A DNA stretch of 64,000 nucleotides from Hippea sp. KM1 (lineage in GTDB: Bacteria; Campylobacterota_A; Desulfurellia; Desulfurellales; Hippeaceae), in the NCBI RefSeq assembly GCF_000526195.1, contig NZ_JAFP01000001.1:124001-188000 (forward strand). The letters are read 5' to 3'. This document shows, one piece after another, positions 23,622 to 52,519 of the stretch. Position 1 is the first letter of the stretch; each line of letters starts with the position of its first letter. The notes beneath the pieces were generated by a model. That model made no database searches. It saw only the letters and a list, made by a program, of their open reading frames with translations, and was not told the origin of the DNA. Made by a program: the position numbers and the translations under genes.

Positions 23622-24388
23622 ACGTTTTGGATAGTTTCAGGCTCGATGGTAAGATTGCTATAGTTACAGGCGGATATGGTCATTTGGGCAGGGCATTTGT
23701 TGAGGCTTTGCATGAAGCGCACGCCAAGGTCTATGTTGCAGCAAGGAGCAGGGATAGATTCTTGGAAGTTTTTAAGGGAATAAAAGGTATTGAGTTTGTC
23801 TATTTGAATATTCTGGATACAAACTCGATAAAAGAGGCCTTTTCTTCTGTGCATAAGGAGAATGTTAAGATTGATATTTTGGTTAACAATGCCGTATCGC
23901 TTGATTTTGGATCGGCGTTTATGGATGATGAAACGTGGAATAAGGGAGTTGATGGCGTTTTGAACAGCGTTTTTAGGTGTATAAGAGAGGTTGTGCCCTT
24001 TATGGAAAGTGGTGCAAGCATAATCAATATTGCATCGATGTATGGCATGGTTTCACCGGATTTTGAGATCTATAAGGGCTTTGAGCAATTCATGAGTCCG
24101 CCACACTACGGTGCTGCAAAATCCGGTGTCATACAGATGACGCGCTACTATGCCGTTAAGTTGGCAAAAAAGGGCATCAGGGTGAACTGCATATCGCCGG
24201 GTCCTTTTCCGTCCAAATTCGTTCAGAAGTTCGATGGATTTATTGAGAAACTCAAGTCAAAGGTACCCTTAGGAAGGATTGGCGATCCCGAGGAATTAAA
24301 GGGAGCTTTGGTCTTTCTTGCAAGTGATGCATCATCCTTTGTAGCGGGTCATAACTTGGTTGTGGATGGTGGGTGGACGATATGGTGA
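23618..24388 (+). CDS. Short-chain dehydrogenase/reductase
   Basis: About 256 residues. The Rossmann glycine motif is TGGYGHLG near residue 18, followed by NNAV, catalytic serine in INIASMYG and the YxxxK motif YGAAK. The C-terminus GHNLVVDGGW is typical of NAD(P)-dependent SDRs. TTG 23618 is chosen because GGAGG lies 5 bases before it and TTGA overlaps the previous stop. Likely a keto-sugar reductase, judged only from neighbours. Confidence 0.85.
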   Translation: MNVLDSFRLDGKIAIVTGGYGHLGRAFVEALHEAHAKVYVAARSRDRFLEVFKGIKGIEFVYLNILDTNSIKEAFSSVHKENVKIDILVNNAVSLDFGSAFMDDETWNKGVDGVLNSVFRCIREVVPFMESGASIINIASMYGMVSPDFEIYKGFEQFMSPPHYGAAKSGVIQMTRYYAVKLAKKGIRVNCISPGPFPSKFVQKFDGFIEKLKSKVPLGRIGDPEELKGALVFLASDASSFVAGHNLVVDGGWTIW

Positions 24389-25341
24389 AAGATGAGCGTG
24401 TTGTTGCGTTTATTGTTGCAAGGCTATCCTCTTCAAGGTTGCCCAATAAGCACCTAAAGACCATAGGCGACAGACGAATGATCGATTGGACAATCCACTT
24501 TATCAAGCAGGTAAAGTATTTGGACGATATTGTTATTGCAACGGTAGATGAGGAGGACAATAGACCGTTAATTGATGTGGCAAAGGAGCATAAGGTGAAG
24601 CTATTTTGGTATAGGGGTGAAGTTAGTGATGTGGTGGGCAGGTTGACTAAAGCGGCCATCGAGTTTGAAGCTGATATTCCAATTCTTGTGAGCGGTGATT
24701 GTCCGCTGATTTGGCCTGAAACCGTAACAAAGCGTATAGAGAAGATTTCAACAAACAAAGAGCTTGACTATGTTGGTTTTTGTAAAAAGGATGGTCAATA
24801 CCCCATACATTCAAGTGTCGGTGTTTATAGGAGAAGGTGTTGGGAGTTAGCGGATAGACTGTCTGATAAGCCAAACTTGAGGGAGCACCATTTTCCCGTT
24901 GTGGGTTTGAGGAGCGATCTATTTAAGATAGACTGTATTGAATGTGAAGATATCTTTTACAAGGTGAATCACAGGATCTCTGTTGATACGCTTGCAGATT
25001 TAGAGTTTATGAATGCTGTTTTTGATGGGCTTAAATCTAAAGGCAAGGCTTTTGACCTCAAAAACTCCGTTGAGTTATTGATTGAAAAGCCCGAGCTTAT
25101 GCAGATAAATGCGGATGTTCACCAGATAAGAATAGACGAAAAGCCCAAAAAGGCGCTGTTTAGGCTGAATTCTGAAGAGAATGCAGAGCTGTTTTTTGAT
25201 TTAGCGTATCATCTGACAAAGAAGGGTGTAGGCGTTAGGTTCTATTCGACCGATAAGGGTGTGTTGGAGCTTATCAGGAACAAAGGATACGGCATAGCCA
25301 GGGATTTAGACGGTTTTGATTTTGAGATAGTCGATAGATAG
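24382..25341 (+). CDS. SpsF-like cytidylyltransferase with C-terminal extension
   Basis: About 319 residues. The N-terminal 230 residues are a GT-A-type nucleotidyltransferase of the CMP-sugar synthase/SpsF family (IVARLSSSRLPNKHL, DDIVIATVDEEDNRPL, VSGDCPLIWPE). These activate acidic sugars with CTP. The last 80 or so residues (KKALFRLNSEENAE, GVGVRFYSTDKGV) are extra and resemble part of a PseG/SpsG-like Rossmann unit (inference). ATG 24382 overlaps the SDR stop. A second, IS-interrupted copy of this gene type begins at 21286. Confidence 0.82.
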   Translation: MVKDERVVAFIVARLSSSRLPNKHLKTIGDRRMIDWTIHFIKQVKYLDDIVIATVDEEDNRPLIDVAKEHKVKLFWYRGEVSDVVGRLTKAAIEFEADIPILVSGDCPLIWPETVTKRIEKISTNKELDYVGFCKKDGQYPIHSSVGVYRRRCWELADRLSDKPNLREHHFPVVGLRSDLFKIDCIECEDIFYKVNHRISVDTLADLEFMNAVFDGLKSKGKAFDLKNSVELLIEKPELMQINADVHQIRIDEKPKKALFRLNSEENAELFFDLAYHLTKKGVGVRFYSTDKGVLELIRNKGYGIARDLDGFDFEIVDR

Positions 25342-33133: not shown

Positions 33134-33137
33134 CAAA

Positions 33138-34463: not shown

Positions 34464-34474
34464 TTCTATATGAT

Positions 34475-35303: not shown

Positions 35304-35332
35304 CAAATGACACAGTATCTGCGAGGTGAAAA

Positions 35333-36217
35333 ATGGTTGAGTTTGTTGCGGAGGTTTCGAGTAATCATAATGGGGATTTGAACAGATGCTTAAAGTTTGT
35401 GGAAGAGGCGAAAAGGAGCGGTTGTGATGGTGTTAAGTTCCAGCTGTTTAAAATTGACCAACTGTTTGCGCCTGAGATTCTAAAATACAGTGAAGAGCAC
35501 AGGAAAAGAAAGGAATGGGAGTTGCCTGTTGAGTTTTTGCCCGAAATCTCAAGAAAATGCAAAGAGGTCGGAATAAAGTTTGTTTGCACACCGTTTTATT
35601 TGGATGCCGTTGATGAGCTTGAGCCTTATGTTGATGTATACAAGATTGCGTCTTATGAGCTTTTGTGGCACGACCTTTTTAAAAAATGCGCATCAACGGG
35701 AAAGCCCGTTATTGTGTCAACTGGCATGGCAACGCTCGATGAGGTCAAGAACGCTGTGGATGTACTCATTAAAAATGGATGCAGAGACATAACGGTCTTG
35801 CAGTGCACATCGAGTTATCCGACGCCACCTGATCAGTGCAATTTATCGGCAATTAAGACAATGAGAAATGCGATTAAAGCGCCCGAAGGTGTAAGGCTTA
35901 AATTCGGCTGGTCTGACCATTCGGTAAACGAGGGCGTCATACTGCGCGCTATCCACAGATGGAATGCAGAGATGATCGAGTTCCACTTCGATTTGGATGA
36001 AAGGGGTGAGGAGTACAAATTCGGGCACTGCTGGTTGCCAAATAGGGTCAAAAACCTGATAAAGATGGCAAGAAATGGATTTTTAGCAGATGGGAACGGA
36101 ATCAAGGCGCCACAGGAAAACGAGCTTGAAGAGAGGAACTGGCGAGCAGATCCTACAGATGGTCTAAGGCCCCTAAAACAAACAAGGATCAAATGGCTGA
36201 AACAGTTAGAAAAATAG
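35333..36217 (+). CDS. NeuB-family nonulosonate (sialic-acid-like) synthase without SAF domain
   Basis: 294 residues of the NeuB TIM barrel: FVAEVSSNHNGDLNRCL, SGCDGVKFQLFK, KFVCTPFYLDAVDEL, KIASYELLWHDLF, VSTGMATLDEV, LQCTSSYPTPP, GWSDHS. These enzymes condense phosphoenolpyruvate with an amino-hexose to form nonulosonic acids. The usual C-terminal antifreeze-like SAF domain (about 60 residues) is missing. The protein ends in EERNWRADPTDGLRPLK, which suggests a distinct subfamily and not a broken gene. It overlaps the next gene by 25 bases. Confidence 0.86.
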   Translation: MVEFVAEVSSNHNGDLNRCLKFVEEAKRSGCDGVKFQLFKIDQLFAPEILKYSEEHRKRKEWELPVEFLPEISRKCKEVGIKFVCTPFYLDAVDELEPYVDVYKIASYELLWHDLFKKCASTGKPVIVSTGMATLDEVKNAVDVLIKNGCRDITVLQCTSSYPTPPDQCNLSAIKTMRNAIKAPEGVRLKFGWSDHSVNEGVILRAIHRWNAEMIEFHFDLDERGEEYKFGHCWLPNRVKNLIKMARNGFLADGNGIKAPQENELEERNWRADPTDGLRPLKQTRIKWLKQLEK

Positions 36218-37149
36218 ACATTGATGAGATAGAAAAACGCCTTTTAAATATTAAATTTGCACCTTCACCTATTAATTTTGAGAAAATCAAGCAGAACTAT
36301 ACCCGTGAAATAGGCACAGACAGGGTTATTTTAAAGCTCAAGGCATCAAGGGATATTGGTCTTGGGCATCTGTCGAGGATGATAACGCTTGGCTGGATCT
36401 TAAAAGACGCAAAAGCTGATGTGGTTTTTGCAATTAACGACTTTGAATACGCCAAAGAAAGATTAAATAAGGAAGGCTTTAGGTTTGAGATAAATAGGTT
36501 TGATTCAGATGAAGCATTTGTCGATGATTTAGTTGAGAAATACAAGCCCGATGTTATAGTCGTTGACGAGAAAAGGGCTTATAACATAAGCGATGTAAAA
36601 AGATGGCAAGAGTTTGCTCGCTTTGTGTCGCTGGACTTTATCGGTGAGGGTTATGAGATATGCGACAGAATTATTATACCCAATGCGCACTTTGAGCCGA
36701 AAAAGCATTCAACCTTTAACAATATCGTCTGGGGCTGGGGCTGGGTTTTGATTAACAAAGAGGTGTTTAAGTTAAAGCCCAAAAGCGCACTGCCTAAGGA
36801 AATAGGTAAAATTGTTATAACGACCGGCGGAAGCGATCCCTCTGGCATGTTGTTCAAATTCTTGGATTGGCTCAAAGGTTGCAAAAGGGAGGTTTTGGTT
36901 CTAATTGGAGAAGCATTTAAACACAAAGAAAGACTGCGGAGCTTGAATTTGCCCGATAATTTTAAAATTTTGCCATACAGTCCAAATATGCTATTGGAAG
37001 GCGACCTTGCCCTTGCGACTTTTGGCGTAACGGTATATGAGCTGATCTATTTGAACATTCCGTTCATTTGTGTGGGTCATACTGAGGAAAATAAAACGGG
37101 ATGCAGGACTTTAAAAAACAGGTGTAGACTGATAATCAACGATGAGTGA
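36193..37149 (+). CDS. PseG/SpsG-like nucleotide-sugar hydrolase or transferase, possibly C-terminally shortened
   Basis: 318 residues with the GT-B-like PseG fold: RDIGLGHLSRMITLGWIL with the catalytic-region His, PDVIVVDEKRAYN, VITTGGSDPSG, LATFGVTVYELIYLNIPFI and VGHTEEN. PseG removes UDP from a 2,4-diacetamido sugar before the NeuB-type step, so its place next to the synthase fits. Homologues usually run 20-40 residues past HTEEN. Here an unrelated tail CRTLKNRCRLIINDE ends the frame just before a terminator and a convergent gene, so 3' truncation is possible. Confidence 0.78.
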   Translation: MAETVRKIDIDEIEKRLLNIKFAPSPINFEKIKQNYTREIGTDRVILKLKASRDIGLGHLSRMITLGWILKDAKADVVFAINDFEYAKERLNKEGFRFEINRFDSDEAFVDDLVEKYKPDVIVVDEKRAYNISDVKRWQEFARFVSLDFIGEGYEICDRIIIPNAHFEPKKHSTFNNIVWGWGWVLINKEVFKLKPKSALPKEIGKIVITTGGSDPSGMLFKFLDWLKGCKREVLVLIGEAFKHKERLRSLNLPDNFKILPYSPNMLLEGDLALATFGVTVYELIYLNIPFICVGHTEENKTGCRTLKNRCRLIINDE

Positions 37150-38834: not shown

Positions 38835-38863
38835 TTGACAATCTCAAGTTTTAATTCTATCAT
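38835..38863 (+). promoter_or_regulatory. Strong sigma-70 promoter of the glycan operon
   Basis: A perfect TTGACA (38835-38840), a 17-base spacer and TATCAT (38858-38863), about 100 bases before the GT2 start. It is the best promoter ahead of the eight genes that follow to 47626. Confidence 0.68.
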
Positions 38864-38963
38864 CCGAGTAGGTAAGTAAGAAACCGTTAAACCCTAAGAA
38901 CTTATGTGGGAGAAAAGGCGATGTTTTCAAATAAAAAATAGTAGGCAATGTAAGGAGGAAATA

Positions 38964-40043
38964 ATGATAAAAAAGGGCGGTTTTGTCTACAGCAAAATAC
39001 CGAAAGTGAGTGTAATTTTACCTACATACAACAGAGAAAAAACAGTTTCAAGAGCAATTGAAAGTGTCCTTGCTCAAACTTTTACAGATTTTGAATTAAT
39101 AATAATTGATGATGGTTCTACTGATAATACAAAAGAAATAGTGAATAAATTTAAAGACGAAAGAATAGTATATGTAAGATACAATGAGAATAGGGAAAGA
39201 TCGGCTGCAAGGAATTCAGGAATAAAAATTTCAAGAGGAAAATATATAGCTTTTTTAGATTCAGATGACGAATGGATTAGAGATAAGCTCAAGAAACAAG
39301 TTAACCTTGTAGAAAATTCCAAAGAAAATGTTGGGGTAGTATATACAGGATACACGCAAGTTTGGGATAACTTGAACGGCAGAAAAATAACAAACCCTTT
39401 TATTGATTCTGTAGAAAAATTAGAAGGTAATATCTATGAAGAATTAAAAAAAGGCGACTTCGTATTACCCTCTTCAGTTTTAGTAAAGAAAAAAGTTTTT
39501 GAAAAGGTCGGTTTATTTGATGAAAAAATTTATGCTGGTGAAGCATGGGATTTATGGGTTAGAATTTCTGAAAAATTTCTATTTAGCTTTATAGAGGAGC
39601 CTTTGGTTGTAAGATACATAAATAATGATAGTTTAAGTGGTTTTTCATTTGATCCATTTCGTGTTGTAAATACGATGCTACGTGTTTCTGAAAAACTTGA
39701 TATTAACTTTAACAAACAAATATTCAAATGGTTTTTTTCCAATTTTAGAACAACAGAAGAATTTTTAGAGTACACAAGAGAAAATACACAAGAGAGAGTT
39801 ATAATATTCGGAGCCAGTGCCCGTGGAATAGCAATATTTAAATACTTGCTTTCTAAAGGAATAAAATTCAACTTTTTTGTTGATAACGATAAAAAAAAAT
39901 GGGGTAAAAAAATAGAAGATATAGAAATAAAAAGTCCTGATGCTATAGAAAAGGAAGACATAGTGATTATTGGTAGTGCCTGGTGGAAAGAAATTGCCAA
40001 ACAATTGATTCATTTAGGGGTTACTAAAATGGTTGCTGGGTAA
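38964..40043 (+). CDS. GT2 glycosyltransferase with C-terminal Rossmann-like domain
   Basis: About 359 residues. The GT-A domain (about 15-230) has KVSVILPTYNREKTVSRAI, LIIIDDGSTDNT, RNSGIKISRGKYIAFLDSDD and a base region EAWDLWVR. The last 80 residues (VIIFGASARGIAIFKYLLSK, FFVDNDKKKWGK, DIVIIGSAWWKEI) form a small nucleotide-binding-like unit that recurs at the N-terminus of the next protein. ATG 38964 is chosen for its AAGGAGGAAATA site. The DNA here is visibly richer in A+T than the flanking housekeeping genes, suggesting transfer. Confidence 0.85.
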   Translation: MIKKGGFVYSKIPKVSVILPTYNREKTVSRAIESVLAQTFTDFELIIIDDGSTDNTKEIVNKFKDERIVYVRYNENRERSAARNSGIKISRGKYIAFLDSDDEWIRDKLKKQVNLVENSKENVGVVYTGYTQVWDNLNGRKITNPFIDSVEKLEGNIYEELKKGDFVLPSSVLVKKKVFEKVGLFDEKIYAGEAWDLWVRISEKFLFSFIEEPLVVRYINNDSLSGFSFDPFRVVNTMLRVSEKLDINFNKQIFKWFFSNFRTTEEFLEYTRENTQERVIIFGASARGIAIFKYLLSKGIKFNFFVDNDKKKWGKKIEDIEIKSPDAIEKEDIVIIGSAWWKEIAKQLIHLGVTKMVAG

Positions 40044-40109
40044 ACAGAGGAAGAGCTATTTGTTATGTTATTTTTTTACAAAGATATACTCTGAGGAGGT
40101 AAAAACAAA

Positions 40110-41168
40110 ATGAGCATTAACAAAATAGAAGATAGGAGATTGTTGGGCGAAAAGACAGTGATTCTGTTCGGCGCGGGTGGATTGTTATCTTATGCAATCA
40201 ACGAACTTAGTAAATTAAGCATTGAAGTAGCATATATTTCCGATAATAATAAAAATTTACATGGAACTAAAGTAAACGGTATAGAAATTATACCGCCCGA
40301 CAAAATAAAAGATAAAAATCTGCCTGTTTTAATAACAAGTATGTATGCTAAAGAAATAGCATCTCAACTTAAAAGCATGGGAATTGAAGAATATTGTGAT
40401 TTTTCTTATAGTTTTGATCTAAATCGATGGATCGAACATTTTGATCTTGAGCTAATTAACAAAAATATTGATAAAATTAATGAAGCAAGAGAATTATTTG
40501 AAGACATTGAATCCAAAGAAGTGTTTGATTCTATATTAGAGTATAGAAGGACGCTAAAACCCGATATTTTGTTGAAGGCTTCTTATGACAATTATTTCCA
40601 CCCCTTGGCAAGTCCAAAAAAAAATGATGTTATTATAGATGGCGGTGCTTGGCATGGAGATACATGTATTAATTTTGCTTCAAAATTAAAAAACAGATGC
40701 ACTATATATTCATTTGAACCAGAGGAAAATAATTTTAATAAATTGAAAAACAGTATCTATAAGCATAAGCTTCAGAACACTGTTTTTCCAATAAAAAAAG
40801 GCCTTTACAACAAGGAATGCACCCTGTTTATAGATACAAATGTTGATAACGATATGCAATTTCAAATCCGAACTACAAATACTGGCAAAGCAATAGAAAT
40901 GATTTCTATAGATATTTTCATTAAACAAGAGAATATCTCAAAAATCGATTTCATAAAAATGGATATAGAAGGCTCCGAATATAAAGCATTAGAAGGAAGC
41001 AAGAAAACTATAGAAAGATTCAAACCAAAGTTGGCAATTTGTATTTATCACCTATACAATGATTTGTGGGAAATTCCTCTGTTAATTAAAAGATTAAACA
41101 GTCAATACAGACTGTATTTAGGTCATCATTCTCAGAATTTACTCGACACAGTTTTGTATGCTGTATAA
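40110..41168 (+). CDS. FkbM-family methyltransferase with N-terminal Rossmann-like domain
   Basis: 352 residues. Residues about 14-95 (VILFGAGGLLSYAINELSK, YISDNNKNLHGTKVNGIEI) match the C-terminal unit of the preceding glycosyltransferase. From about 170, the SAM-dependent FkbM domain has VIIDGGAWHGDT, TIYSFEPEENNF and IDFIKMDIEGSEYKALEG. FkbM enzymes O-methylate sugars. GAGGAGG precedes the ATG. It overlaps the transketolase gene by 11 bases. A+T rich like its neighbour. Confidence 0.86.
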   Translation: MSINKIEDRRLLGEKTVILFGAGGLLSYAINELSKLSIEVAYISDNNKNLHGTKVNGIEIIPPDKIKDKNLPVLITSMYAKEIASQLKSMGIEEYCDFSYSFDLNRWIEHFDLELINKNIDKINEARELFEDIESKEVFDSILEYRRTLKPDILLKASYDNYFHPLASPKKNDVIIDGGAWHGDTCINFASKLKNRCTIYSFEPEENNFNKLKNSIYKHKLQNTVFPIKKGLYNKECTLFIDTNVDNDMQFQIRTTNTGKAIEMISIDIFIKQENISKIDFIKMDIEGSEYKALEGSKKTIERFKPKLAICIYHLYNDLWEIPLLIKRLNSQYRLYLGHHSQNLLDTVLYAV

Positions 41169-41979
41169 TATAATGGAAACTGGTATGAATAAAATAGCAG
41201 CAAAAATTAGAATAGGCACTTTAAAATCAATCCATTATGCTGACTCTGGTCATCCTGGTGGCTCACTATCAATAGTCGGTATTCTGGTTTATCTATACTT
41301 CAAAGAGATGAATATAAAAGACTGGCGAGATCCTAACAGAGATAGGTTTGTTTTGTCCAAAGGTCATGCCTGCCCCGCTTTGTATGCAGTGTTAGCAGAA
41401 AAGGGGTTCATAGAAAAAAAAGAACTCTGGAATTTGAGAAAAACAGGTGCTCTTCTGCAGGGGCATCCAGAGATTGGAATACCTGGTATAGAAGTTGTTT
41501 CAGGGTCATTGGGACAAGGGTTCTCTGCAGCACTTGGTATAGCATTGGGGGCAAAGAGACTGAACAAAAGTTTTAGGGTTTATGTGATTCTTGGGGATGG
41601 CGAGTGTAACGAAGGTCAGGTTTGGGAAGGAGCTATGTTTGGTGCTTTCCATAAGTTAGACAACTTGGTTGCAATAGTAGATTACAATAACCTACAAAGC
41701 GACAGCAATTGCGACAATGTTACAGCCTTGTCTCCTCTAAACGAAAAATGGAAAGCATTTGGGTGGCATGTCTTAGAGATAAATGGCCATGATTTCAAAG
41801 AAATAGAGAACGCCTTCAAAGTTGCAAGAAGAACAAAAGGCAAACCCACATGCATTATTGCGCATACAATCAAGGGCAAAGGTGTATCATTTATGGAAAA
41901 CAACCCAGCTTGGCATGGAAGTAGAGGCTTGACAGAGGAAGAGTTAAGACAAGCGCTGAAGGAATTGGGTGAAGAATGA
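41158..41979 (+). CDS. Transketolase, N-terminal (thiamin-diphosphate) subunit
   Basis: 273 residues: SGHPGGSLSIVGILVYLYF, DRFVLSKGHACPALYAVL, GSLGQGFSAALGIALGAK and the ThDP signature GDGECNEGQVWEG to NNLQ. This is the first half of a split transketolase that moves two-carbon ketol units. The start is uncertain (ATG 41158, 41173 or 41185). The family usually begins near KIAAKIRIGTLK. It overlaps the second subunit by 4 bases. Its place inside a glycan operon suggests a special sugar precursor and not central metabolism. Confidence 0.9.
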   Translation: MLYNIMETGMNKIAAKIRIGTLKSIHYADSGHPGGSLSIVGILVYLYFKEMNIKDWRDPNRDRFVLSKGHACPALYAVLAEKGFIEKKELWNLRKTGALLQGHPEIGIPGIEVVSGSLGQGFSAALGIALGAKRLNKSFRVYVILGDGECNEGQVWEGAMFGAFHKLDNLVAIVDYNNLQSDSNCDNVTALSPLNEKWKAFGWHVLEINGHDFKEIENAFKVARRTKGKPTCIIAHTIKGKGVSFMENNPAWHGSRGLTEEELRQALKELGEE

Positions 41980-42902
41980 TTTCTTTAAGAGAGGCTTTCG
42001 GAAAATACTTATTAGAATTGGCAAGGAATAGAGATGATTTCTTTGTTCTCGATGCGGATGTTGCAGGCGGAACATTTACACACTGGTTTAGAGATAAATA
42101 CCCTGAGCGTTTTGTGGAATGCGGCATAGCAGAACAAAATATGTTTGGTGTTGCAGCTGGTCTGTCAACGTTGGGTATCATTCCTATTGTTACAACCTAT
42201 GCTGTTTTTGCTTCAATGAGGGCCATTGAACAGGCGAGAAACTCTATTGCTTACCCCAATTTCAATGTAAAAATCGTAGCATCTCATCCAGGAATCGATA
42301 CCGGCCCTGATGGAGCTACTCATCAGGCAATAGAGGATTTGGCAATATACAGATCGATACCAAACTTTGTTGTTCTATCTCCTGCTGATGACATTGAGCT
42401 AAAACAATGCTTAAATTGTGCACTTGACCACAAAGGCCCGGTATATATAAGAACAGGCAGAAGCCCTGTGCCGACTATTCATGAGGAAGGGTACAAATTC
42501 AATCTTGGAAACCCAGATGTAATATTTGAGGGGGAAAAAGACATTATCCTTTTTGGCTGCGGGATAACATCTCACAGGGTCTTAAATGTAGCAAAAAAAC
42601 TCGGCATAACTGCTGTAAATGTGCCAACACTCAAACCAATAAACAGAGAAGATTTTGTTAATGTTTTAAAACCAGCTAAGATTGCGATTACTGTAGAGGA
42701 TCACAATATCATTGGGGGTCTTGGAGACCTTATTGGCAGTGTAATTTCAGGAAATGGGCTTTGTACAAAGCTGATAAAAATGGGGGTTCAAGACAAATTT
42801 GGAAAATCAGGAGACCCTATAGAACTTGCTAAACTATATGGCATAGATGAATCATCAATAGAAAATACAGCTAAAGAGGTGATAAATGAGATTAAAGGAT
42901 AA
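41976..42902 (+). CDS. Transketolase, C-terminal (pyrimidine-binding) subunit
   Basis: 308 residues. It shows REAFGKYLLELARNRDDFF, VECGIAEQNMFGVAAGLS with the catalytic Glu that activates ThDP, VASHPGIDTGPDGATHQAIED, and the C-terminal swivel domain VEDHNIIGGLGDLIGS. It complements the overlapping N-terminal subunit to make a full enzyme. It overlaps the next SDR gene by 17 bases. Confidence 0.9.
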   Translation: MISLREAFGKYLLELARNRDDFFVLDADVAGGTFTHWFRDKYPERFVECGIAEQNMFGVAAGLSTLGIIPIVTTYAVFASMRAIEQARNSIAYPNFNVKIVASHPGIDTGPDGATHQAIEDLAIYRSIPNFVVLSPADDIELKQCLNCALDHKGPVYIRTGRSPVPTIHEEGYKFNLGNPDVIFEGEKDIILFGCGITSHRVLNVAKKLGITAVNVPTLKPINREDFVNVLKPAKIAITVEDHNIIGGLGDLIGSVISGNGLCTKLIKMGVQDKFGKSGDPIELAKLYGIDESSIENTAKEVINEIKG

Positions 42903-43644
42903 GGTGGCGTTGGTCACAGGTGGGTCAAGGGGCATAGGAGGGGCTATAGTAGAAAAAATCGCCCCTATGGTTGGTTGCGTGGTTTTTACATACAAAAAAA
43001 ACAAAGAAAAGGCTTTACAAATAAAAGAAAGCCTGAAGAATAAGGGATATGAAACAGAGTGCTTTAAGCTTGATCAATCCAATAGGAACGAGATAAAAGC
43101 CGTTATAAAAGGGATACACGAAATATTTGGTGGCGTAGATATATTGATAAACAATGCTGCAATTTCCCAAGAAAAACCATTTGAAACGATAACGGACGAT
43201 GATTGGGAATTGATGTTAAAAACCAATCTGCAAGGACCTTTTGGATTAATCCAGGAATGTCTGCCTTACATGAAAGAAAAGGGGTGGGGCAGAATTGTTA
43301 ATATTGTCTCCGTAGGTGGCCAGTGGGGAGGCTACAATCAGGTGCATTATGCAGCATCAAAAGCCGGACTTATAAGTTTAACACACTCCATAGCAAAAAT
43401 TTATTCAAGATTCGGTATAACGAGCAATGCTGTCTCTCCTGGGCTTGTTGCAACCGATATGTCAAAAAATGAGTTAGAAACAGAAACAGGGAAAAAGAAA
43501 GTTGAAAACATACCCTTGGGAAGAATAGCAACGCCAGAAGAGGTAGCTGATGTAGTAACTTTTCTTATAAGCGATGAGGCCTCTTATATAACTGGACAAA
43601 CAATAAATGTGAACGGTGGAATGTTGTTTAGTCATGGGGTTTAA
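42886..43644 (+). CDS. SDR oxidoreductase (FabG-like), probably a keto-sugar reductase
   Basis: 252 residues: VALVTGGSRGIGGAIVEK, NNAAISQEKPF, catalytic serine in VNIVSVGGQ, YxxxK as YAASK, and TGQTINVNGGM at the end. A classical NAD(P) short-chain dehydrogenase. Its position directly after the transketolase pair suggests it reduces the ketose that they form (inference). A true fatty-acid FabG is less likely in this setting. Confidence 0.85.
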   Translation: MRLKDKVALVTGGSRGIGGAIVEKIAPMVGCVVFTYKKNKEKALQIKESLKNKGYETECFKLDQSNRNEIKAVIKGIHEIFGGVDILINNAAISQEKPFETITDDDWELMLKTNLQGPFGLIQECLPYMKEKGWGRIVNIVSVGGQWGGYNQVHYAASKAGLISLTHSIAKIYSRFGITSNAVSPGLVATDMSKNELETETGKKKVENIPLGRIATPEEVADVVTFLISDEASYITGQTINVNGGMLFSHGV

Positions 43645-43674
43645 TTTATTCATTGCAGAAAGGAGATAAAAACC

Positions 43675-44508
43675 ATGGAGCTGGAATATCTGAAAATTAT
43701 TCAAATAGGTTTTCCTAAATCTGGTAATTCTTTACTTAATAAACTCATAACATTATGTTTAAAAGAGTTAGGTGTATTCAAAACTTATAAAAACACCATT
43801 GGTTTATCATATGTCTATACTGAGCTTTATAAAATGTACAATTTAGAAGAGTTGTTTGAAGATAGTATGGATGTGGATGACATAAGGGTCGTAAACGATA
43901 AACTATACTTAAGTTTCCTGTTTCCGGTGGAAAACCTGAGATTAGTTGAGGTTCAGCCAACAGCTTTGCTACAATTTTCTTCTTTAGTTTGGAGTCATTC
44001 AAAGCCAAACGAGCTTTATCCTTTTTTTCTAAATTTCGGAGTTAGATTTTACATTATCAGGGACGGCAGGGACGCAATAAACTCTCTTATACACGCAAAC
44101 ACTTCCGCAAAAGTTTTAAAGTATTACCCAGAATTCAAAATTAACGATGCAAAAGAGCTATATAGCAGGCTGGATATATTCGAGAAGTATGTCAGAATGT
44201 GGAATGACCATGTGGAAAACTATCTACCCTATAAAGAATTTTTCACGGAAATAAGATATGAAAAACTCATAAACGGCGGTGAGGATTTTCTTAAAATTCT
44301 AAAAATTTTTAATCTTGAGAGAAAATACACTGAATTTAAAGAAATTCTTTCCTTTAAAAAGATGAAAGAAAAATCTCCTTCACACCTAAGAAAGGGAAAA
44401 ATAGGTGATTGGAAAAACTACTTCACTGAAAAACATAAGGAAATATTTAAAGAAATAGCGGGTGATACATTGATAAAATTAGGGTATGAAAAGGACAAAA
44501 ATTGGTAA
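43675..44508 (+). CDS. Sulfotransferase-family protein
   Basis: 277 residues. The 5'-phosphosulfate loop is IQIGFPKSGNSLLNKL (about 9-24). The 3'-phosphate contact is in FYIIRDGRDAINSLIH (about 122-137). The late segment HLRKGKIGDWKNYFTEKH is the usual PAPS-binding end. It would move sulfate from PAPS to a sugar hydroxyl or amine. AAAGGAG precedes the ATG. No PAPS synthesis genes are in the window. Confidence 0.83.
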   Translation: MELEYLKIIQIGFPKSGNSLLNKLITLCLKELGVFKTYKNTIGLSYVYTELYKMYNLEELFEDSMDVDDIRVVNDKLYLSFLFPVENLRLVEVQPTALLQFSSLVWSHSKPNELYPFFLNFGVRFYIIRDGRDAINSLIHANTSAKVLKYYPEFKINDAKELYSRLDIFEKYVRMWNDHVENYLPYKEFFTEIRYEKLINGGEDFLKILKIFNLERKYTEFKEILSFKKMKEKSPSHLRKGKIGDWKNYFTEKHKEIFKEIAGDTLIKLGYEKDKNW

Positions 44509-45728
44509 CAGACCTAAAAACACTCCTCATTTTAGGCACAGGTAAAGATCAGGTTTTTGGCATAGAAAAAGCCAAAGAGATGGGATTATACACGGTTGGG
44601 CTTGATATAAACGAATTCTCTGGCGGCGCAAGACTTGTGGATGAATTCTATAAAGTCAACATAAAGGATGAGAAAGAAGTTGTAGAGTTTATAGAAAAAT
44701 ACAACAATCCGATTGACGGTGTGATTGCCTTTGGTGTTGACATTCCTGAAATACTGGCAAGAGTAGCAGAACTCAAGGGTGTCTTTTATTATACAGATTA
44801 TGAAACTGCCCTTCTATCCAAAGATAAATACAAAGCAAAAAAGAGAATGAAAGAGTATGGCGTAAGATTACCTAACTTCTCAAAGATTGAAACATTTGAA
44901 GATTTAGCAAAAAAAACCAAGGATTTCGGTTATCCATGTGTTTTAAAACCCGTTGATAACAGTGGTGCAAGGGGAGTTTTAAGGATCACTGAAGATGTTG
45001 ATCTTAAATGGGCTTTCGAATATTCCAAATCGTTTTCTAAAAACGGATACTTGATACTTGAGAAATTTTTAGACGGCATGCAGATAAGTTCTGAAAGCTT
45101 TATAGTCGATGGAAGGGTATATACGGTCGGGTTATCTGAAAGAAATTACGAATTTTTGGACAAATTTGCACCTTTTATAATAGAAAACGGCGGTGATTTA
45201 CCACCACCATTAAACAATAAACAAAGAAAAGAGATTGACGAGCAAATCTCAAGGTGCGCAGAAGCCTTTGGTGTAAGAAATGGAATAATCAAGGGCGATC
45301 TTGTAATTCACGATGGCAAGGTTTTCGTCATAGAGGTGGCATTAAGGCTATCAGGCGGGCATTTTTCGTCTGTTGAAATACCACTAAACACAGGTGTGGA
45401 TTTTTTGAGGTATGCAATTCAGATGTCTCTGGGCGAGAAAGTCAACCCTGATAATTTGAGATACACCATAAAAAAGTATGTTGCTTTAAGATATATTTTT
45501 CCGAATAAAAAGGGTACAATAAAAAGACTCAGATTTCCTGAATGGTTTAAAGAAAAAAATGAAGTAATAGTTTACGATTTTTACTATAAAATCGGAGATA
45601 AAGCCAACTACCCCATTAAATCTCACCCTGAACGATTGGGTTTTTTTATAATAGCAGCAAACAATAGACAAGAGGTGGCCTCAACTATTAAAAAGACCTA
45701 TGAAGATACAGTTGTAGAGATAGTGTGA
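44502..45728 (+). CDS. ATP-grasp ligase
   Basis: 408 residues from TTG 44502 (7-base overlap). It has an N-terminal Rossmann-like preATP-grasp part (LLILGTGKDQVFGIEKAKE), the ATP-grasp lysine region YPCVLKPVDNSGARGV, metal-binding IIKGDLVI and FVIEVALRLSGGH. It joins a carboxylate to an amine or other nucleophile using ATP. In glycan operons such enzymes often add an amino acid to a sugar (inference). The substrate is unknown. Confidence 0.85.
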   Translation: MVTDLKTLLILGTGKDQVFGIEKAKEMGLYTVGLDINEFSGGARLVDEFYKVNIKDEKEVVEFIEKYNNPIDGVIAFGVDIPEILARVAELKGVFYYTDYETALLSKDKYKAKKRMKEYGVRLPNFSKIETFEDLAKKTKDFGYPCVLKPVDNSGARGVLRITEDVDLKWAFEYSKSFSKNGYLILEKFLDGMQISSESFIVDGRVYTVGLSERNYEFLDKFAPFIIENGGDLPPPLNNKQRKEIDEQISRCAEAFGVRNGIIKGDLVIHDGKVFVIEVALRLSGGHFSSVEIPLNTGVDFLRYAIQMSLGEKVNPDNLRYTIKKYVALRYIFPNKKGTIKRLRFPEWFKEKNEVIVYDFYYKIGDKANYPIKSHPERLGFFIIAANNRQEVASTIKKTYEDTVVEIV

Positions 45729-47626
45729 TGCTCTACTTTTACGCCCTTTTTCATTTGAATTTAATGTATTCATCCATCGAGGAAGACGAAAGAGGCGTTG
45801 TTATAGACAGGTGCTATTACCCGCTACTTGAGATTGCAGAAGACGGCGTTCCGATAAGTATAGAGTTAAGCGGCTTGACGCTTGAGTTAATACAAAAGAT
45901 AAAGCCTGAATGGGTCGAGGAGTTCAAAAAACTCTTAAAAGAAAACAAAATCGAGCTCATTGGAAGCGGGTACTCACAGATCATCGGGCCGTTGATGCCC
46001 TATGAATTGAACATCCAAAATCAATTGATCGGGCTTGAGGTCTACCAAAATCTACTTGGCATTAGACCAAAAATTGCGCTTGTTAACGAGATGGCCTACT
46101 CTAAAGGCTTGGTTGATATTTACAAAGAGGCGGGTTATGAAGCCATTGTAATGGAGTGGAATAATCCGTATAGGTTTCACAAGGAGTGGAGCAAGGATTG
46201 GGCGTATTTTCCACAGATTGCAAAGGGAGTAAAAAGTGATATACCCATAATCTGGGCGGATTCAATAGCGTTTCAGAAGTTTCAAAGATACGCACATGGG
46301 GAGATGTCGCTAAAGGAATACTTCTATTACCTGAAATCACACGACTCTAAAAGGGTTAGATTCTTTCCACTTTATGCCAACGATGCTGAGATCTTTAACT
46401 TTAGGCCGGGCAGATATGAAACAGAAGCCAATTTACAGTTCGATGAGTGGAGAAGGATAAAGAAACTATTAAGTGTTATAAAAAACAAGGGCTCTGAGTT
46501 TGTGTTTTTAAAAGACACCCTAAAACACAAGCAAAACAACATACTAAACCTTGAATCGCCACAGCAGCCGATACCCGTTAAAAAGCAGGAAAAGTACAAC
46601 ATAAACAGGTGGGCTTTGACCGGCAGGGGTGATCTTGAGATAAACACAGACATTTTTAGGCTTGTAAAGGCGTTTGAATACAGCAAACCCACAAAAGAGG
46701 ACTGGAAAAGGCTGCTCTACTTTGCATCGAGCGATTTTAGGACACATATAACGCAAAAGAGGTGGCGCACCTTCAAAAAAGAGCTCGATGATTTCGTTAA
46801 AAAATGGGATGCAAAGCCTGTTTATCTTTCCTATCCGAGCAACAAGGTTAATTTCGACATAAAAGAAAACCTGTTTTTCCTAACGGTTGAGACAAAGAAA
46901 ATAAAATGCGTTTTCAACAAAAAGAAGGGCTACACAGCAAAAGCTGTGATATTCAAGGAAAAGTCCCAGAGACCCCTGATTGGCACGCTTCCACATGGAT
47001 ATTACGATGATATTTCTCTTGGCGCTGATTTCTTCTCGCTCCACTCTATTATAGAAAAACCAGGCGAGCACAAGCTTACAAACCTGTGCGCGTCGGAATG
47101 TAGATTAACCATTGATGACCGCAGGGTCAAAATCGAAAGCAGGTGTCTGGATAGGAATGCAGAGTTTTTGAGGATCTACGAGATTTTTGAAGACGCACTA
47201 AAAATTTACATGAAAATCACCCTACCCAAGAGGGATTTTGCGATTATTCATCCCCTAAACATCACCTTTAACCCCGAAGCGTTTGATAAAAACAGCCTAT
47301 TCTTTGAAACGCACAACGGCTCTCTACTGCCAGAGCGGTTTGAGCTTAAAAATGAACCTGTGGCGCACTCGCAAAGCCTGTCTGTGCTCATCTCTGCAAA
47401 ACACGGCCTCGGAGCAACGAAAGGCTCAATTGTCATAGGAGACAAAGACAAACAGCTGACATTTTTGCACAATCAGACCTTAAGTGCGCTGATACCCTCG
47501 ATATTCTTCCTGCCTATCGACAACACATACTTCTTTAGACTCCAATACTCGGCCCAAGAGATGGACGAAACATTCAAGCCAAACGATTTAGAGCAAGTGA
47601 TAGAGTGCGAGTTTTTGATTAAGTAG
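45728..47626 (+). CDS. Glycoside hydrolase family 57-like protein
   Basis: 632 residues. GH57 marks: ALFHLNLMYSSIEED at the start (region 1), IELSGLTLELI (region 2), LVNEMAYSKGL with the putative nucleophile Glu, and YANDAEIFNFRPGRYE, the region 4 acid. The second half is beta rich. GH57 enzymes cut or rearrange alpha-glucans and related chains. ATG 45728 overlaps the ATP-grasp stop (TGATG). No signal peptide, so it works in the cytoplasm, perhaps trimming or proofreading the glycan. It is last gene of the operon from 38964. Confidence 0.82.
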   Translation: MLYFYALFHLNLMYSSIEEDERGVVIDRCYYPLLEIAEDGVPISIELSGLTLELIQKIKPEWVEEFKKLLKENKIELIGSGYSQIIGPLMPYELNIQNQLIGLEVYQNLLGIRPKIALVNEMAYSKGLVDIYKEAGYEAIVMEWNNPYRFHKEWSKDWAYFPQIAKGVKSDIPIIWADSIAFQKFQRYAHGEMSLKEYFYYLKSHDSKRVRFFPLYANDAEIFNFRPGRYETEANLQFDEWRRIKKLLSVIKNKGSEFVFLKDTLKHKQNNILNLESPQQPIPVKKQEKYNINRWALTGRGDLEINTDIFRLVKAFEYSKPTKEDWKRLLYFASSDFRTHITQKRWRTFKKELDDFVKKWDAKPVYLSYPSNKVNFDIKENLFFLTVETKKIKCVFNKKKGYTAKAVIFKEKSQRPLIGTLPHGYYDDISLGADFFSLHSIIEKPGEHKLTNLCASECRLTIDDRRVKIESRCLDRNAEFLRIYEIFEDALKIYMKITLPKRDFAIIHPLNITFNPEAFDKNSLFFETHNGSLLPERFELKNEPVAHSQSLSVLISAKHGLGATKGSIVIGDKDKQLTFLHNQTLSALIPSIFFLPIDNTYFFRLQYSAQEMDETFKPNDLEQVIECEFLIK

Positions 47627-47690: not shown

Positions 47691-48689
47691 GTGTTTAACG
47701 ATAAGGTTATCTTCATAACAGGCGGCACAGGGAGCTTTGGTAAGAAATTCACCCAGATATTGCTTGAGAATTACAAACCCAAAAAGGTCATAATATACTC
47801 AAGGGATGAGTTCAAACAGTTCGAGATGAGTAAAACCTTTAACGACAGGTGCATGCGCTATTTTATCGGAGATGTGAGGGACAAAGACAGGCTTTTAAGG
47901 GCTATGGAGGGCGTTGATTATGTTGTCCATGCTGCGGCCTTGAAGCATGTGCCAATCGCAGAATACAACCCTATGGAGGCTATAAAAACCAATGTACTTG
48001 GCGCAAACAATGTAATAGACGCAGCGATTGAATCGGGCGTTAAAAAGGTGATAGCCCTATCGACGGACAAGGCGGTAAACCCGATAAACCTATACGGCGC
48101 AACAAAGCTTGCGGCGGATAAGCTTTTTATTGCAGCAAACAACATAAAAGGAGCAAGGCCAATTAAGTTCAGCGTCGTTAGATACGGCAATGTCATGGCT
48201 TCTCGAGGCAGTGTGATTCCGCTCTTTATGAGGCTAACCAAAGAAGGCGCAAAGAAGCTGCCCATAACGCACCCCGATATGACACGATTTTGGATAACAC
48301 TGGATGAGGCCGTTAGGTTTGTCATGATGGCATTTGAGACGATGCAGGGCGGCGAGATCTTTGTTCCAAAGATTCCGTCGATGAAGATAACCGACTTAGC
48401 AAAGGCTATTAACCCTGATGCTGAATTTGAGATAATTGGCATAAGGCCTGGCGAGAAGTTGCATGAGACTTTGATCTCTGTGGATGAGTCCTATAATACG
48501 ATTGAGTTTGGTGAGTATTTTGTAATTCAGCCTTTGATCCATGTGACAGGCAGGCCCGACTATTTTGTTAATCCCAAAGGAGAAAAGGGGATAAGAAAGG
48601 AGTTTGGTTTTAGGTTTTCATCGGATAATAACGATAGATGGTTGTCTGTCGATGATTTAAGGGATAAACTTAAGGATGTCGATGTATGA
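47691..48689 (+). CDS. pseB: UDP-N-acetylglucosamine 4,6-dehydratase (inverting)
   Basis: 332 residues from a GTG start with AGGGGGTGAG upstream. The extended SDR has FITGGTGSFGKKF, HAAALKHVPIAEYNP (the family mark where Asp/Lys replace the usual catalytic set), STDKAVNP and YGATKLAADK. PseB starts the pseudaminic acid pathway by inverting dehydration of UDP-GlcNAc. It overlaps pseC by 4 bases. Together with the PseG- and NeuB-like genes it points to a nonulosonic acid product for flagellin. Confidence 0.93.
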   Translation: MFNDKVIFITGGTGSFGKKFTQILLENYKPKKVIIYSRDEFKQFEMSKTFNDRCMRYFIGDVRDKDRLLRAMEGVDYVVHAAALKHVPIAEYNPMEAIKTNVLGANNVIDAAIESGVKKVIALSTDKAVNPINLYGATKLAADKLFIAANNIKGARPIKFSVVRYGNVMASRGSVIPLFMRLTKEGAKKLPITHPDMTRFWITLDEAVRFVMMAFETMQGGEIFVPKIPSMKITDLAKAINPDAEFEIIGIRPGEKLHETLISVDESYNTIEFGEYFVIQPLIHVTGRPDYFVNPKGEKGIRKEFGFRFSSDNNDRWLSVDDLRDKLKDVDV

Positions 48690-49837
48690 TACCGTATTCC
48701 CATCAATGCATCGATGAGGACGATATAGAAGCAGTTGTTGAGGTCTTGCGGACGGATTTTTTAACGCAGGGACCAAAGATTGAAGCGTTCGAAAAGGCTT
48801 TGGCCGATTACTGCTCTGCAAAGTACTGCGTGGCATTCAACTCTGCAACAACGGCGCTTTATGCCTCTTGCTTTGCTTTGGGCTTAGGTAAAAACGATAG
48901 CTTCATAACAACACCGATTAGCTTTGTATCCACGGCAAATGCCGGAGTCTATTGTGGAGCAGGGCCTATTTTTTGTGATATTGAAAAAAACACGGGCAAC
49001 ATGGATGTCGATTTAGTTGAGGATCTGATTGAGAAAGACACAAGGTTGATCATAGGTGTTGATTATGGTGGCAATCCGCTTAAGTGGGATAAGCTTAAAA
49101 GCATTGCAGAAAAGTATGGGCTAAAGCTCATCGATGATGCATCACATGCTTTAGGTGCAGAGTATAAAGGCAAAAGGATCGGCTCCTGTGAGTTTTGCGA
49201 TATTACGGTGTTTAGCTTTCATCCGGTAAAGCCCATAACGACGGCAGAGGGCGGTGCGGCACTAACAAACGACGAGACTCTTTATAAAAAGCTTTTGATG
49301 TTCAGAAACCACGGTATAACAAAAAGTGCGAAGGATTTTATATCTGAGCCTGACGGCGATTGGTACTATGAGATGCAGTTTTTGTCCTTCAATGGGCGGA
49401 TTAGCGATATGCAGGCAGCTTTGGGTTTGAGCCAATTAAAGAAGCTAAATAGTTTCACAGAAAAGCGCAGAGAAATTGTAAAACTTTATAAGGATAGGTT
49501 TGAGAACAAAGGGTTTTTTGATTTTACCGAAGAGACAAAGGGCGCAAAGAGTGGTTATCATCTCTTGCCTGTCTTGCTAAAGGACGGCTTTGTTGAGAAA
49601 AAGCAGGAGATTTTTAAAAATTTAAGGTCAAAGGGCGTTGGCGTTCAGGTGCACTATATACCCATTTACAGACAGCCGTTTTATAGAAGGTTGGTGTCTA
49701 ATGTCCATTGCCCGAATGCAGAGGAGTTTTATAGAAGAGAGTTGAGTTTACCCGTTTATCCTTGCATGGAAAGGGATGATTTGGAGTTTGTCTTTGAGGC
49801 TGTTGAGGGGGTTTTTGAACAGCTACTCAGCCCATAA
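48686..49837 (+). CDS. pseC: UDP-4-amino-4,6-dideoxy-N-acetyl-altrosamine transaminase
   Basis: 383 residues of the DegT/DnrJ PLP aminotransferase family: IPYSHQCIDEDDIEAVVEVL, FNSATTALYASCFALG, DDASHALGAEYKG and the PLP lysine in FSFHPVKPITTAEGGA. It follows pseB as in Campylobacter and Helicobacter clusters and performs step two of pseudaminic acid synthesis. Complete. pseH and a standard pseF are not in the window. Confidence 0.93.
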   Translation: MIPYSHQCIDEDDIEAVVEVLRTDFLTQGPKIEAFEKALADYCSAKYCVAFNSATTALYASCFALGLGKNDSFITTPISFVSTANAGVYCGAGPIFCDIEKNTGNMDVDLVEDLIEKDTRLIIGVDYGGNPLKWDKLKSIAEKYGLKLIDDASHALGAEYKGKRIGSCEFCDITVFSFHPVKPITTAEGGAALTNDETLYKKLLMFRNHGITKSAKDFISEPDGDWYYEMQFLSFNGRISDMQAALGLSQLKKLNSFTEKRREIVKLYKDRFENKGFFDFTEETKGAKSGYHLLPVLLKDGFVEKKQEIFKNLRSKGVGVQVHYIPIYRQPFYRRLVSNVHCPNAEEFYRRELSLPVYPCMERDDLEFVFEAVEGVFEQLLSP

Positions 49838-49909: not shown

Positions 49910-50197
49910 TCAATTTATCCTAACACCTTTTAGGGCTTCCTTTTCTATTGGTCTGTTAAAGTCCCTACTGACAACAACATCCACAGGTTTTCCCAATAAA
50001 TTTTCTAATTTCGCTTCTAATTTAATCCGCTTTTCAAAGAGCTTCTCCCTTTCATCTGGCACAACAAAAATGTCGATATCCCCGCCCTTTTTCTCCTTCA
50101 ATCTGCTTCCAAATATATATACCTCGCACTTGCCAAAAACCTTCTCAGCCAAATCCCTTATGGTTTTAATCTCTTCCTCGCTCAACCTTATCTTCAA
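49910..50197 (-). CDS. mntA: MNT-type nucleotidyltransferase antitoxin (MntA)
   Basis: 95 residues. The minimal nucleotidyltransferase motif is IFGSRLKEKKGGDIDIFV, then PVDVVVSRDF with the third acidic residue. In HepT-MntA pairs, MntA adds AMP to a HepT tyrosine and so silences the RNase (family knowledge). It overlaps hepT by 32 bases. Confidence 0.85.
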   Translation of the reverse strand: MKIRLSEEEIKTIRDLAEKVFGKCEVYIFGSRLKEKKGGDIDIFVVPDEREKLFEKRIKLEAKLENLLGKPVDVVVSRDFNRPIEKEALKGVRIN

Positions 50198-50734: not shown

Positions 50735-52519
50735 TTACTGCAGCAGTCTTAGAACATTCTGCTGGACAGCGTTTGCCTGAGCCAGTGCGTAGGTACCGGA
50801 CTGTGCAAGGATCTGGAGCTTGGAGAAGTTTGAGGACTCTTGTGCGAAGTTGACATCCCTGATCGTTGACTCAGCACCGTTGATGTTGATCTGTGTTACG
50901 GAGATGTTCTCAACCGTTGCCTGGATCTGGTTCTGGATTGCACCGAGGCTGGACCTGACTGCGTCTAAGTCTTTAAGAGCAGATTGCGCAATCTTGATTG
51001 CAAGCTCAGCGCCGTTTACCGTGGTGACATTCACATCCTCTAATTTGTGTGTTGGGGCTATGACACCTGCAGCTAAACCTCCAACAGAAGGTTTGTTGCC
51101 AGCTATTGTTATATTATCTGTACTTGTAAGAATTACCCTTCCTCTGTTGGATTCATTGGCAAGATAGTAAATTTCATGATTGGCGTTTGTAGCGTCTAAC
51201 CCAAGGAAATTTAGATGACTTGCCTTTGCCTGGGCGCTTGCAACATGTATGTTTAGATCTTCCCCATCTCTAACGATGGTTTTTAATACACCACCACTAC
51301 TTGCTGTTGCACTAAACCTAATATCATCTGTACTTATACCTGCTGCCTGAAGCTGCGCGTTTAAAGATTGGGCTGCTTGGGCTGCTGATAAATCTTTGTC
51401 GATAACAAGTTTTACGCCATTCATATAGAATGAAAATGCTGCTGCTAAACTTCCACCGTCGGCACCAGTTAAGGTTGTTTCGGCGTTGCTTAAACCTGTG
51501 ATCTGAGCTGCGTTTCCATGTAGCTCTATAGCTATATTTCTTCCGTCAGTAGAAGTTAGGACAAGTTGTCCATTGTTATTGACGCTTGCAACAACTCCGG
51601 TTTCATCTGTATATCTGTTTATAGCGTCTACTAATGCACCATTTGAGTCATTAGCTCCAACATTAACATAGCCTATATTTACACCATTGATCCAGAAATC
51701 ACCAGCATTGATTACTCCTGCTGTAATTGCGTTGTTTCCTGTGACAACATTGGATGCCCTTGCCTCAACTCCACCTGTTTCTAATTGAACGGAGTTTATG
51801 GCTGCAGCCAGTGTTTTAGCAGAAAGCTGCCTTGTTTTATCTATGCCAGCAAGGTCATTTGCAACTGCAACGCCATTAATTGTTAAATCTTCATCTTTTA
51901 ATTCTACAAAGTTTGTATTAGCATTGTATTGTACTGTTGGATTAGAGGTAGCACTTGTTTCCTGTATTTTCTCTGTCCAGTCAGCCTCTAATGTGCCGTT
52001 TGCAACCCAACCAATGGAGTCGGCTGCAGTTCTCTGGGCACCTATAGAGAGTGTCTGGTTCATGTAGGCGCCGATGTGAACGATTTTGTTTGTGAAGGTT
52101 CCATCCAACAGCTTTGTGTCTTTGTAAGATGTTGTCTCGGCGATGTTGTTGACCTCTTGGATGAGTTTGTTGATTTCTGCCTGGAGTGCCTCTCTGGATG
52201 ATGGATCCTCTGTGGCGTTTGCAGCCTGGGCTGCCTTCTGGGAGATTGTCTGCACGATGTCGATGGATTTCTGCAGAGCCATGTCTGCAATCTGGATGAG
52301 TTTAATAGCGTTGTTGCCGTTGTTGATTGCCTGGCCTAAGTTCATAGACTGAAACTTAAGACCGTCTGCGATCGTCATGCCAGCAGCATCGTCTGCCGCT
52401 TTTGTAATCCTCAGACCCGTCGAGAGCCTGTTGAGTGAGAGAGAAAGTTTGTCATTTGTGTTGTTGAGGTTGAATACTGCATACTGAGCCGAAACATTGG
52501 TATTAATCCTGAGTCCCAT
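50735..52519 (-). CDS. fliC: Flagellin
   Basis: 594 residues. The conserved D0/D1 N-terminus (INTNVSAQYAVFNLNNTNDK, LSTGLRITKAADDAAGMTIA, ALQAEINKLIQEVNNIAETT) and C-terminus (LGAIQNQIQATVENISVTQI, LAQSGTYALAQANAVQQNVL) enclose a variable centre of about 330 residues rich in Thr, Ser, Asn and Ala, suited to O-glycosylation. VHIGAYMNQTLSIGAQ resembles epsilonproteobacterial flagellins. The TLR5-binding RxRELxV of enterics is not evident in D1. The sigma-28 promoter, structured leader and terminator make it a single-gene unit. Confidence 0.97.
   Translation of the reverse strand: MGLRINTNVSAQYAVFNLNNTNDKLSLSLNRLSTGLRITKAADDAAGMTIADGLKFQSMNLGQAINNGNNAIKLIQIADMALQKSIDIVQTISQKAAQAANATEDPSSREALQAEINKLIQEVNNIAETTSYKDTKLLDGTFTNKIVHIGAYMNQTLSIGAQRTAADSIGWVANGTLEADWTEKIQETSATSNPTVQYNANTNFVELKDEDLTINGVAVANDLAGIDKTRQLSAKTLAAAINSVQLETGGVEARASNVVTGNNAITAGVINAGDFWINGVNIGYVNVGANDSNGALVDAINRYTDETGVVASVNNNGQLVLTSTDGRNIAIELHGNAAQITGLSNAETTLTGADGGSLAAAFSFYMNGVKLVIDKDLSAAQAAQSLNAQLQAAGISTDDIRFSATASSGGVLKTIVRDGEDLNIHVASAQAKASHLNFLGLDATNANHEIYYLANESNRGRVILTSTDNITIAGNKPSVGGLAAGVIAPTHKLEDVNVTTVNGAELAIKIAQSALKDLDAVRSSLGAIQNQIQATVENISVTQININGAESTIRDVNFAQESSNFSKLQILAQSGTYALAQANAVQQNVLRLLQ

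Follow-up and report, generated by a model that had tools for sequence, protein, structure and literature searches.

The eight genes at positions 38964–47626 of the window (the whole 64,000-nucleotide stretch of Hippea sp. KM1 DNA that was analyzed) constitute a real operon and one biosynthetic unit tied to flagellin glycosylation. We estimate a probability of roughly 55% that this operon is a transketolase version of the Sfm-type flagellin-modification cassette, which would make a two-carbon (C2)-extended acid that an ATP-grasp enzyme ligates to a pseudaminic-type sugar. Comparison across phyla suggests that ThDP enzymes build the C2-extended acid and that the ligase attaches it to the flagellar sugar. 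New here are the swappable ThDP slot, the breadth of phyla in which it occurs together with a GH57-type enzyme, the altered transketolase pocket, and the combination of a single NeuB with the lack of PseH.

An ORF and profile search of the window placed eight plus-strand ORFs in this interval, with the families named in the original prediction. They are preceded by a candidate promoter:

38835..38863, +, sigma-70-like promoter TTGACA-N17-TATCAT upstream of the operon (consensus match only, 11/12)
38964..40043, +, GT2 family glycosyltransferase with a C-terminal Rossmann-like extension (family profiles, start and RBS)
40110..41168, +, FkbM-family methyltransferase (PF05050, 1.4e-22)
41158..41979, +, split transketolase, ThDP-binding N subunit (Transketolase_N; PF00456, 1.5e-51; closest PDB entry 6yak, N chain)
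41976..42902, +, split transketolase, Transket_pyr plus Transketolase_C subunit (domain matches; cassette marks G32, P111 and D242)
42886..43644, +, FabG-like SDR reductase, the constant partner of the ThDP enzyme (family match, SDR tree)
43675..44508, +, sulfotransferase-domain protein (Sulfotransfer_1), accessory (PF00685, 3.3e-11)
44502..45728, +, ATP-grasp carboxylate-amine ligase (SfmE-like) with L-amino-acid-ligase fold (sequence and predicted fold)
45725..47626, +, GH57/GH38-like glycosidase (family match; catalytic E122 and D220)

The close packing and A+T richness noted before were both confirmed. Six of the seven junctions are overlaps of 4–17 bp or gaps of at most 30 bp, the largest gap (66 bp) lies between the GT2 and FkbM genes, and the GC content of the island is 0.34–0.38, against 0.43–0.47 across most of the window. 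A strong RBS (AAGGAGGA, 38952–38959) precedes the GT2 start at 38964. The single strong promoter that had been proposed corresponds to a site 101 bp before 38964 that ranks first among the 30 in the scanned region, but the number of such sites is at chance level and the match is to the consensus only. The run of eight genes holds as described, but it very likely goes on through pseB, which begins 64 bp downstream, and pseC, so that the operon would end at 49837; a nucleotidyltransferase/HEPN pair, flagellin and a Maf/PseD-like transferase follow. The nonulosonic acid and flagellin genes around the operon are:

22761..25341, +, aldo/keto reductase, SDR and CMP-sugar (SpsF-like) transferase (contiguous with NeuB-PseG in relative L064)
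35333..36217, +, short NeuB-type synthase, 294 aa, without SAF domain, SfmA-like (profile match)
36193..37149, +, PseG/SpsG-like UDP-sugar hydrolase homologue (GLGH motif and homologues; no Pfam match)
47691..48689, +, PseB-type UDP-GlcNAc dehydratase/epimerase, probably in the same operon (PF02719, 4.8e-108)
48686..49837, +, PseC-type aminotransferase (adjoins PseB here and in relatives)
50735..52519, −, flagellin, the likely target protein (homologue in L070, 75%)
52738..55491, +, Maf/PseD flagellin glycosyltransferase, the likely final transfer step (NF050051, 3e-32, below cut-off)

With the canonical pseudaminic acid pathway of Campylobacter and Helicobacter (PseB, C, H, G, I, F) the window shares PseB and PseC, both adjacent to the operon, a PseG-like protein, a NeuB-type synthase, a CMP-transferase and Maf/PseD. 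It differs in the additional ThDP, SDR, ATP-grasp and GH57 genes, in a NeuB without SAF domain (intact NeuB homologues are nearly all 282–308 aa), and in PseH. No PseH N-acetyltransferase was found in the genome, a single complete contig of 1.74 Mb, at E ≤ 1, so that the ATP-grasp enzyme could take its place. Within the window's phylum PseH is absent from 10 of 11 ATP-grasp-positive relatives, but most ATP-grasp-negative relatives lack it too, a weak contrast from few informative genomes. The genome search identified only one NeuB.

The original prediction held that the operon matches no known pathway, yet its gene logic is that of sfmABCDE (SO_3261-3265) of Shewanella oneidensis, a proven flagellin modification system (PMC3765264). 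This system encodes a NeuB of 290 aa, an IlvB-like ThDP enzyme of 581 aa, a FabG-like protein of 255 aa, a methyltransferase of 395 aa and an ATP-grasp protein of 412 aa (PMC3765264). We equate the two cassettes from the order, sizes and families of the genes, as given there and as seen in other Shewanella loci: both combine a short NeuB, a ThDP enzyme, a FabG-like SDR, a methyltransferase and an ATP-grasp ligase beside PseB/PseC and Maf, with flagellin as target. The window carries a split transketolase in place of the IlvB/acetolactate-synthase-like (ALS-like) enzyme of the Sfm cassette and is therefore a variant of it; ALS-like enzymes are present in L067, L068 and most sfm-ordered Shewanella loci. 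The window also adds GT2, the sulfotransferase-like protein and FkbM, and its NeuB lies in a separate upstream segment. The unit is thus of interest, as had been proposed, but belongs to a known, if poorly understood, kind of system and is not wholly undescribed. Our literature search for a described transketolase/ATP-grasp nonulosonic acid pathway returned only the Shewanella paper and unrelated ones.

In S. oneidensis, in-frame deletion of sfmA-D abolished motility and left flagellin apparently unmodified, while deletion of the ATP-grasp gene sfmE gave a smaller mass shift with motility retained (PMC3765264). The modification consists of a mono-N-acetyl pseudaminic-type residue of 274 Da, with one free amine and one acetyl, and a nitrogen-free, O-methylated outer unit (increments C9H16O7, C10H18O7 and C11H20O7); this 264-Da outer moiety was unsolved in 2013, is easily lost in MS and did not give the expected oxonium ion (PMC3765264). 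Its authors also remarked on the missing PseH, PseG, PseI and PseF (PMC3765264). In the literature searched we found no later solution of the 264-Da group. As the outer unit contains no nitrogen and the inner residue has only one acetyl, an amine used by the ATP-grasp enzyme in Shewanella must be that of the pseudaminic residue.

These formulas bear on the earlier proposal that the ATP-grasp enzyme adds an amino acid, while FkbM and the sulfotransferase decorate a novel ketose glycan. By sequence the enzyme does resemble L-amino acid ligases, and its predicted fold is closest, judged by TM-score within the top hits, to that of L-amino acid ligase BL00235 (TM 0.83–0.86). The nitrogen-free outer unit of the homologous Shewanella system argues against amino acid ligation. 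Sulfate decoration fares no better: a whole-genome search for APS kinase, present in four congeners, gave only SRP54-like P-loop matches, which leaves the sulfotransferase-like gene (43675–44508) with no evident PAPS source in this genome and makes sulfation doubtful. We regard this proposal as improbable. There is a precedent for ATP-grasp in flagellin modification: such a protein (CDR20291_0245) is needed for the amide-containing end group of the C. difficile type B flagellin glycan (PMC5207246); that locus has the ATP-grasp gene in common with the window, but makes a different glycan and has no ThDP/SDR/NeuB set.

One subunit of the transketolase pair (N) binds ThDP and the other (C) carries the pyrimidine and C domains; the catalytic residues are intact, and ThDP-binding and catalytic residues are kept in the cassette transketolases generally. 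The best PDB match is the split transketolase of Carboxydothermus hydrogenoformans (6yaj, 6yak), with the same two-chain architecture and ThDP site. The split form had been singled out as unusual; since the housekeeping transketolase of the same genome is also split, it is typical of the lineage instead. This would suit a spare housekeeping transketolase caught in a glycan cluster, a reading that is largely refuted, as the cassette enzymes carry diagnostic residues absent from the housekeeping copies and occupy the same slot across phyla. In human transketolase, Ser345 (S386 in yeast) contacts the substrate phosphate. This phosphate-binding position is a glycine in 18 of 19 cassette transketolases (Gly32 in the window) and a serine in 23 of 27 others. 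Cassette enzymes moreover have Pro111 and Asp242 where the housekeeping copies have Glu at both positions, and the glycine, Pro111 and Asp242 likewise set the window enzyme apart from that of C. hydrogenoformans. These changes fit a non-phosphorylated acceptor.

To see whether the same gene set occurs in other genomes, as had been suggested, 84,980 genomes were scanned with the ATP-grasp protein as bait, so that its presence is by construction and only the neighbors are unselected. The scan yielded 49 loci, 48 of them analyzable, from Campylobacterota, Pseudomonadota (many Shewanella), Thermodesulfobacteriota, Chlorobiota, Verrucomicrobiota, Planctomycetota, Synergistota and others. Among the 48, an SDR is present in 42, a ThDP carboligase in 38, GH57 in 37 and NeuB in 34; where flanks are good, ThDP and SDR occur together in 27 of 34 loci and all four (ThDP, SDR, GH57, NeuB) in 19 of 34. 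The ThDP gene lies immediately 5′ of the SDR gene in 33 places and the SDR gene immediately 5′ of ATP-grasp in 30. Far from being scattered in relatives, the genes keep the order ThDP-SDR-ATP-grasp-GH57 across phyla; the window has this Sfm-type order too, with the sulfotransferase gene between SDR and ATP-grasp. The cassette recurs within the genus (G004, G008, G005) and in others of the family or class (among them G014, G011 and G020), and Shewanella loci L122, L123 and L131 have the sfm order with GH57 immediately after it. A Synergistetes contig (L119, 1–6666) carries near-copies of the window gene set including the sulfotransferase, GT2 and FkbM genes (transketolase N subunit 76% identical), probably through horizontal transfer.

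The enzyme in the ThDP slot, before the same SDR and ATP-grasp genes, is a split transketolase, an ALS-like or a DXS-like enzyme. In G005 and G020 this slot, ahead of the same SDR, holds an ALS-like enzyme instead of the transketolase pair, and the neighbors in G005 remain close to those of the window (SDR 83%, NeuB 87%, ATP-grasp 77%). All three kinds occur within the single genus Shewanella. On the SDR tree the ThDP labels are intermixed, with at least 8 changes for transketolase, 4 of which are forced by well-supported branches, and the window SDR clusters with one transketolase locus and one ALS locus (support 100/99). As the three kinds are unrelated, share only C2 carboligation and alternate before one SDR and ATP-grasp pair, they are most simply read as suppliers of a C2 unit. 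Non-ThDP modules occur as well: in L079 (5064–8792) and L080 (9717–13454), which come from another family within the same taxonomic order, the place of ThDP and SDR between ATP-grasp and GH57 is taken by a KduI-like isomerase and a mannitol-dehydrogenase-like reductase, and Gfo/Idh is the alternative beside the same ATP-grasp and GH57 genes in L071, L100 and L104. KduI and mannitol dehydrogenase belong to uronate or aldonate metabolism, in keeping with an acid-making module.

An unlikely alternative, to our minds, is that the product of the transketolase pair and the SDR, starting from ordinary pentose-pathway donors, is a small hydroxy acid, an alditol or a free ketose used in some other decoration, with conventional nonulosonic acid synthesis alongside. 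It is compatible with the intact transketolase residues and with the KduI/mannitol dehydrogenase (L079) and Gfo/Idh (L071, L100, L104) modules; these modules would also suit acid-making, however, and the fact that ALS- and DXS-like enzymes take the same slot is better explained by C2 carboligation than by ketose interconversion.

Carboligation of another kind would be involved if, as in YerE-like branching, the split transketolase added a hydroxyacetyl group to a nucleotide-bound keto-sugar, with reduction by the SDR, transfer by GT2 and a separate role for ATP-grasp. The likeness to YerE/YerF branched-sugar biosynthesis and to the split transketolases of miharamycin and amipurimycin, which have been proposed to branch keto-sugars, lies in ThDP-dependent C2 addition followed by reduction and in the split-gene transketolase. 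YerE, alpha-KADH2 and transketolase represent the three ThDP superfamilies known or proposed to use ketones, and the ALS-like alternative matches PDB 5ahk (1.3e-77), listed as acetolactate synthase II, which we take to be P. protegens YerE. Differences are the ATP-grasp partner, whose adjacency to the SDR is near-constant, and the nonulosonic acid context. In an enumeration of acceptors, assuming an acetyl donor plus H2, the Shewanella formulas were fitted by hexuronates or keto-aldonates (1–3 methyls), 3-deoxy-heptulosonate (0–2 methyls) or a keto-heptose, but by no deoxy-keto-hexose of the YerE type, so that a sugar-linked version would need the keto-heptose. The oxonium ion expected of the outer unit was not observed in Shewanella (PMC3765264). 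We therefore ranked deoxy-hexose branching down and hold branching in general to be unlikely, if somewhat less so than the free ketose. A NeuB-made 3-deoxy-heptulosonate, which does fit, was also ranked down as the acceptor, because the sole NeuB of the genome is needed for the nonulosonic acid. Of the earlier suggestion that the transketolase pair and SDR could build a ketose or branched sugar, a C2-extended product thus remains probable, but an acid ranks above either sugar.

For the preferred reading, an Sfm-type cassette with a transketolase, we infer the chemistry, the acceptor and any role of GH57 from the observed gene content, order and conservation, ThDP swapping, residue changes, PseH absence and single NeuB. 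PseB and PseC would produce UDP-4-amino-4,6-dideoxy-AltNAc, and a special acid would be made and attached in place of the missing PseH acetylation. The split transketolase may move a two-carbon glycolyl unit to a sugar acid with a non-phosphorylated carbonyl, for which a hexuronate or a keto-aldonate is the likeliest candidate; an ALS- or DXS-like enzyme would instead deliver acetyl to a common acceptor. The FabG-like SDR would then reduce the new ketone, and methyltransferases would decorate the C2-extended acid. Ahead of transfer by Maf, ATP-grasp would couple this acid, through its carboxylate, to the amine left free on the pseudaminic-type sugar or its precursor. The PseG-like, NeuB and SpsF-like enzymes would lead to the CMP-nonulosonic acid, the product that Maf would put on flagellin.

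Several points weigh against this scheme. Loss of the ThDP enzyme, SDR or methyltransferase is harsher in Shewanella than loss of ATP-grasp. If these enzymes served only the side chain, the phenotypes should be the same, and the model therefore has to assume in addition that unfinished intermediates halt the pathway or block assembly. The easy loss of the outer moiety in MS can also mean a glycosidic bond. The operon has no enzyme supplying the acceptor acid; two UDP-sugar dehydrogenase homologues are encoded elsewhere in the genome. Finally, the scheme has no step for GH57. This protein looks like a GH57/GH38-type retaining glycosidase, with a (beta/alpha)7-type domain, TLGT and GH38 as nearest folds, and a catalytic pair (E122 and D220) invariant in 20 homologues. 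A function as PseG replacement was rejected, since most loci have a PseG-like gene or fused domain alongside GH57.

We tentatively extend the proposal, at a little short of even odds, to a modular pathway that crosses phyla, in which ATP-grasp ligases N-acylate pseudaminic-type sugars with C2-extended sugar acids and exchange of the C2 enzyme yields chemically different flagellar and surface glycans. The proposal is consistent with the formula of the Shewanella 264-Da group, and the gene set is widespread, modular and swaps its C–C bond-forming enzyme. If correct, the pathway would contain the first split transketolases to add glycolyl units to a sugar acid, and it would explain how flagellar glycans can be diversified. 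These split transketolases would form a new group whose acceptor specificity has changed, as is sought in biocatalysis.

Further variation was observed around these loci. A B12-binding radical SAM enzyme lies in or next to the ThDP slot in L096 (7925–9214) and L121 (7941–9230). No ThDP enzyme was identified in L092 (6819–9981); ATP-grasp is preceded there by a divergent second NeuB gene and an alcohol-dehydrogenase-like gene, which may form another acid-making module. The upstream glycan cluster (sialidase-like, AKR, SDR, CMP-transferase, NeuB, PseG), contiguous in L064, is split in the window (14202–22399 and 22761–37149) by two transposase genes and unrelated genes. An AAA-ATPase/PD-(D/E)XK ORF (37212–38759, minus strand) in the window and an ATPase-like ORF in L064 (6367–7488) occupy different insertion points in the NeuB-PseG region of the two species. 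Minimal nucleotidyltransferase/HEPN pairs recur in or beside glycan cassettes (window 49910–50624; L069 12744–13458; L068 1101–1801; L067 2242–2727, where only the HEPN-like gene was seen), in one case between SDR and ATP-grasp.
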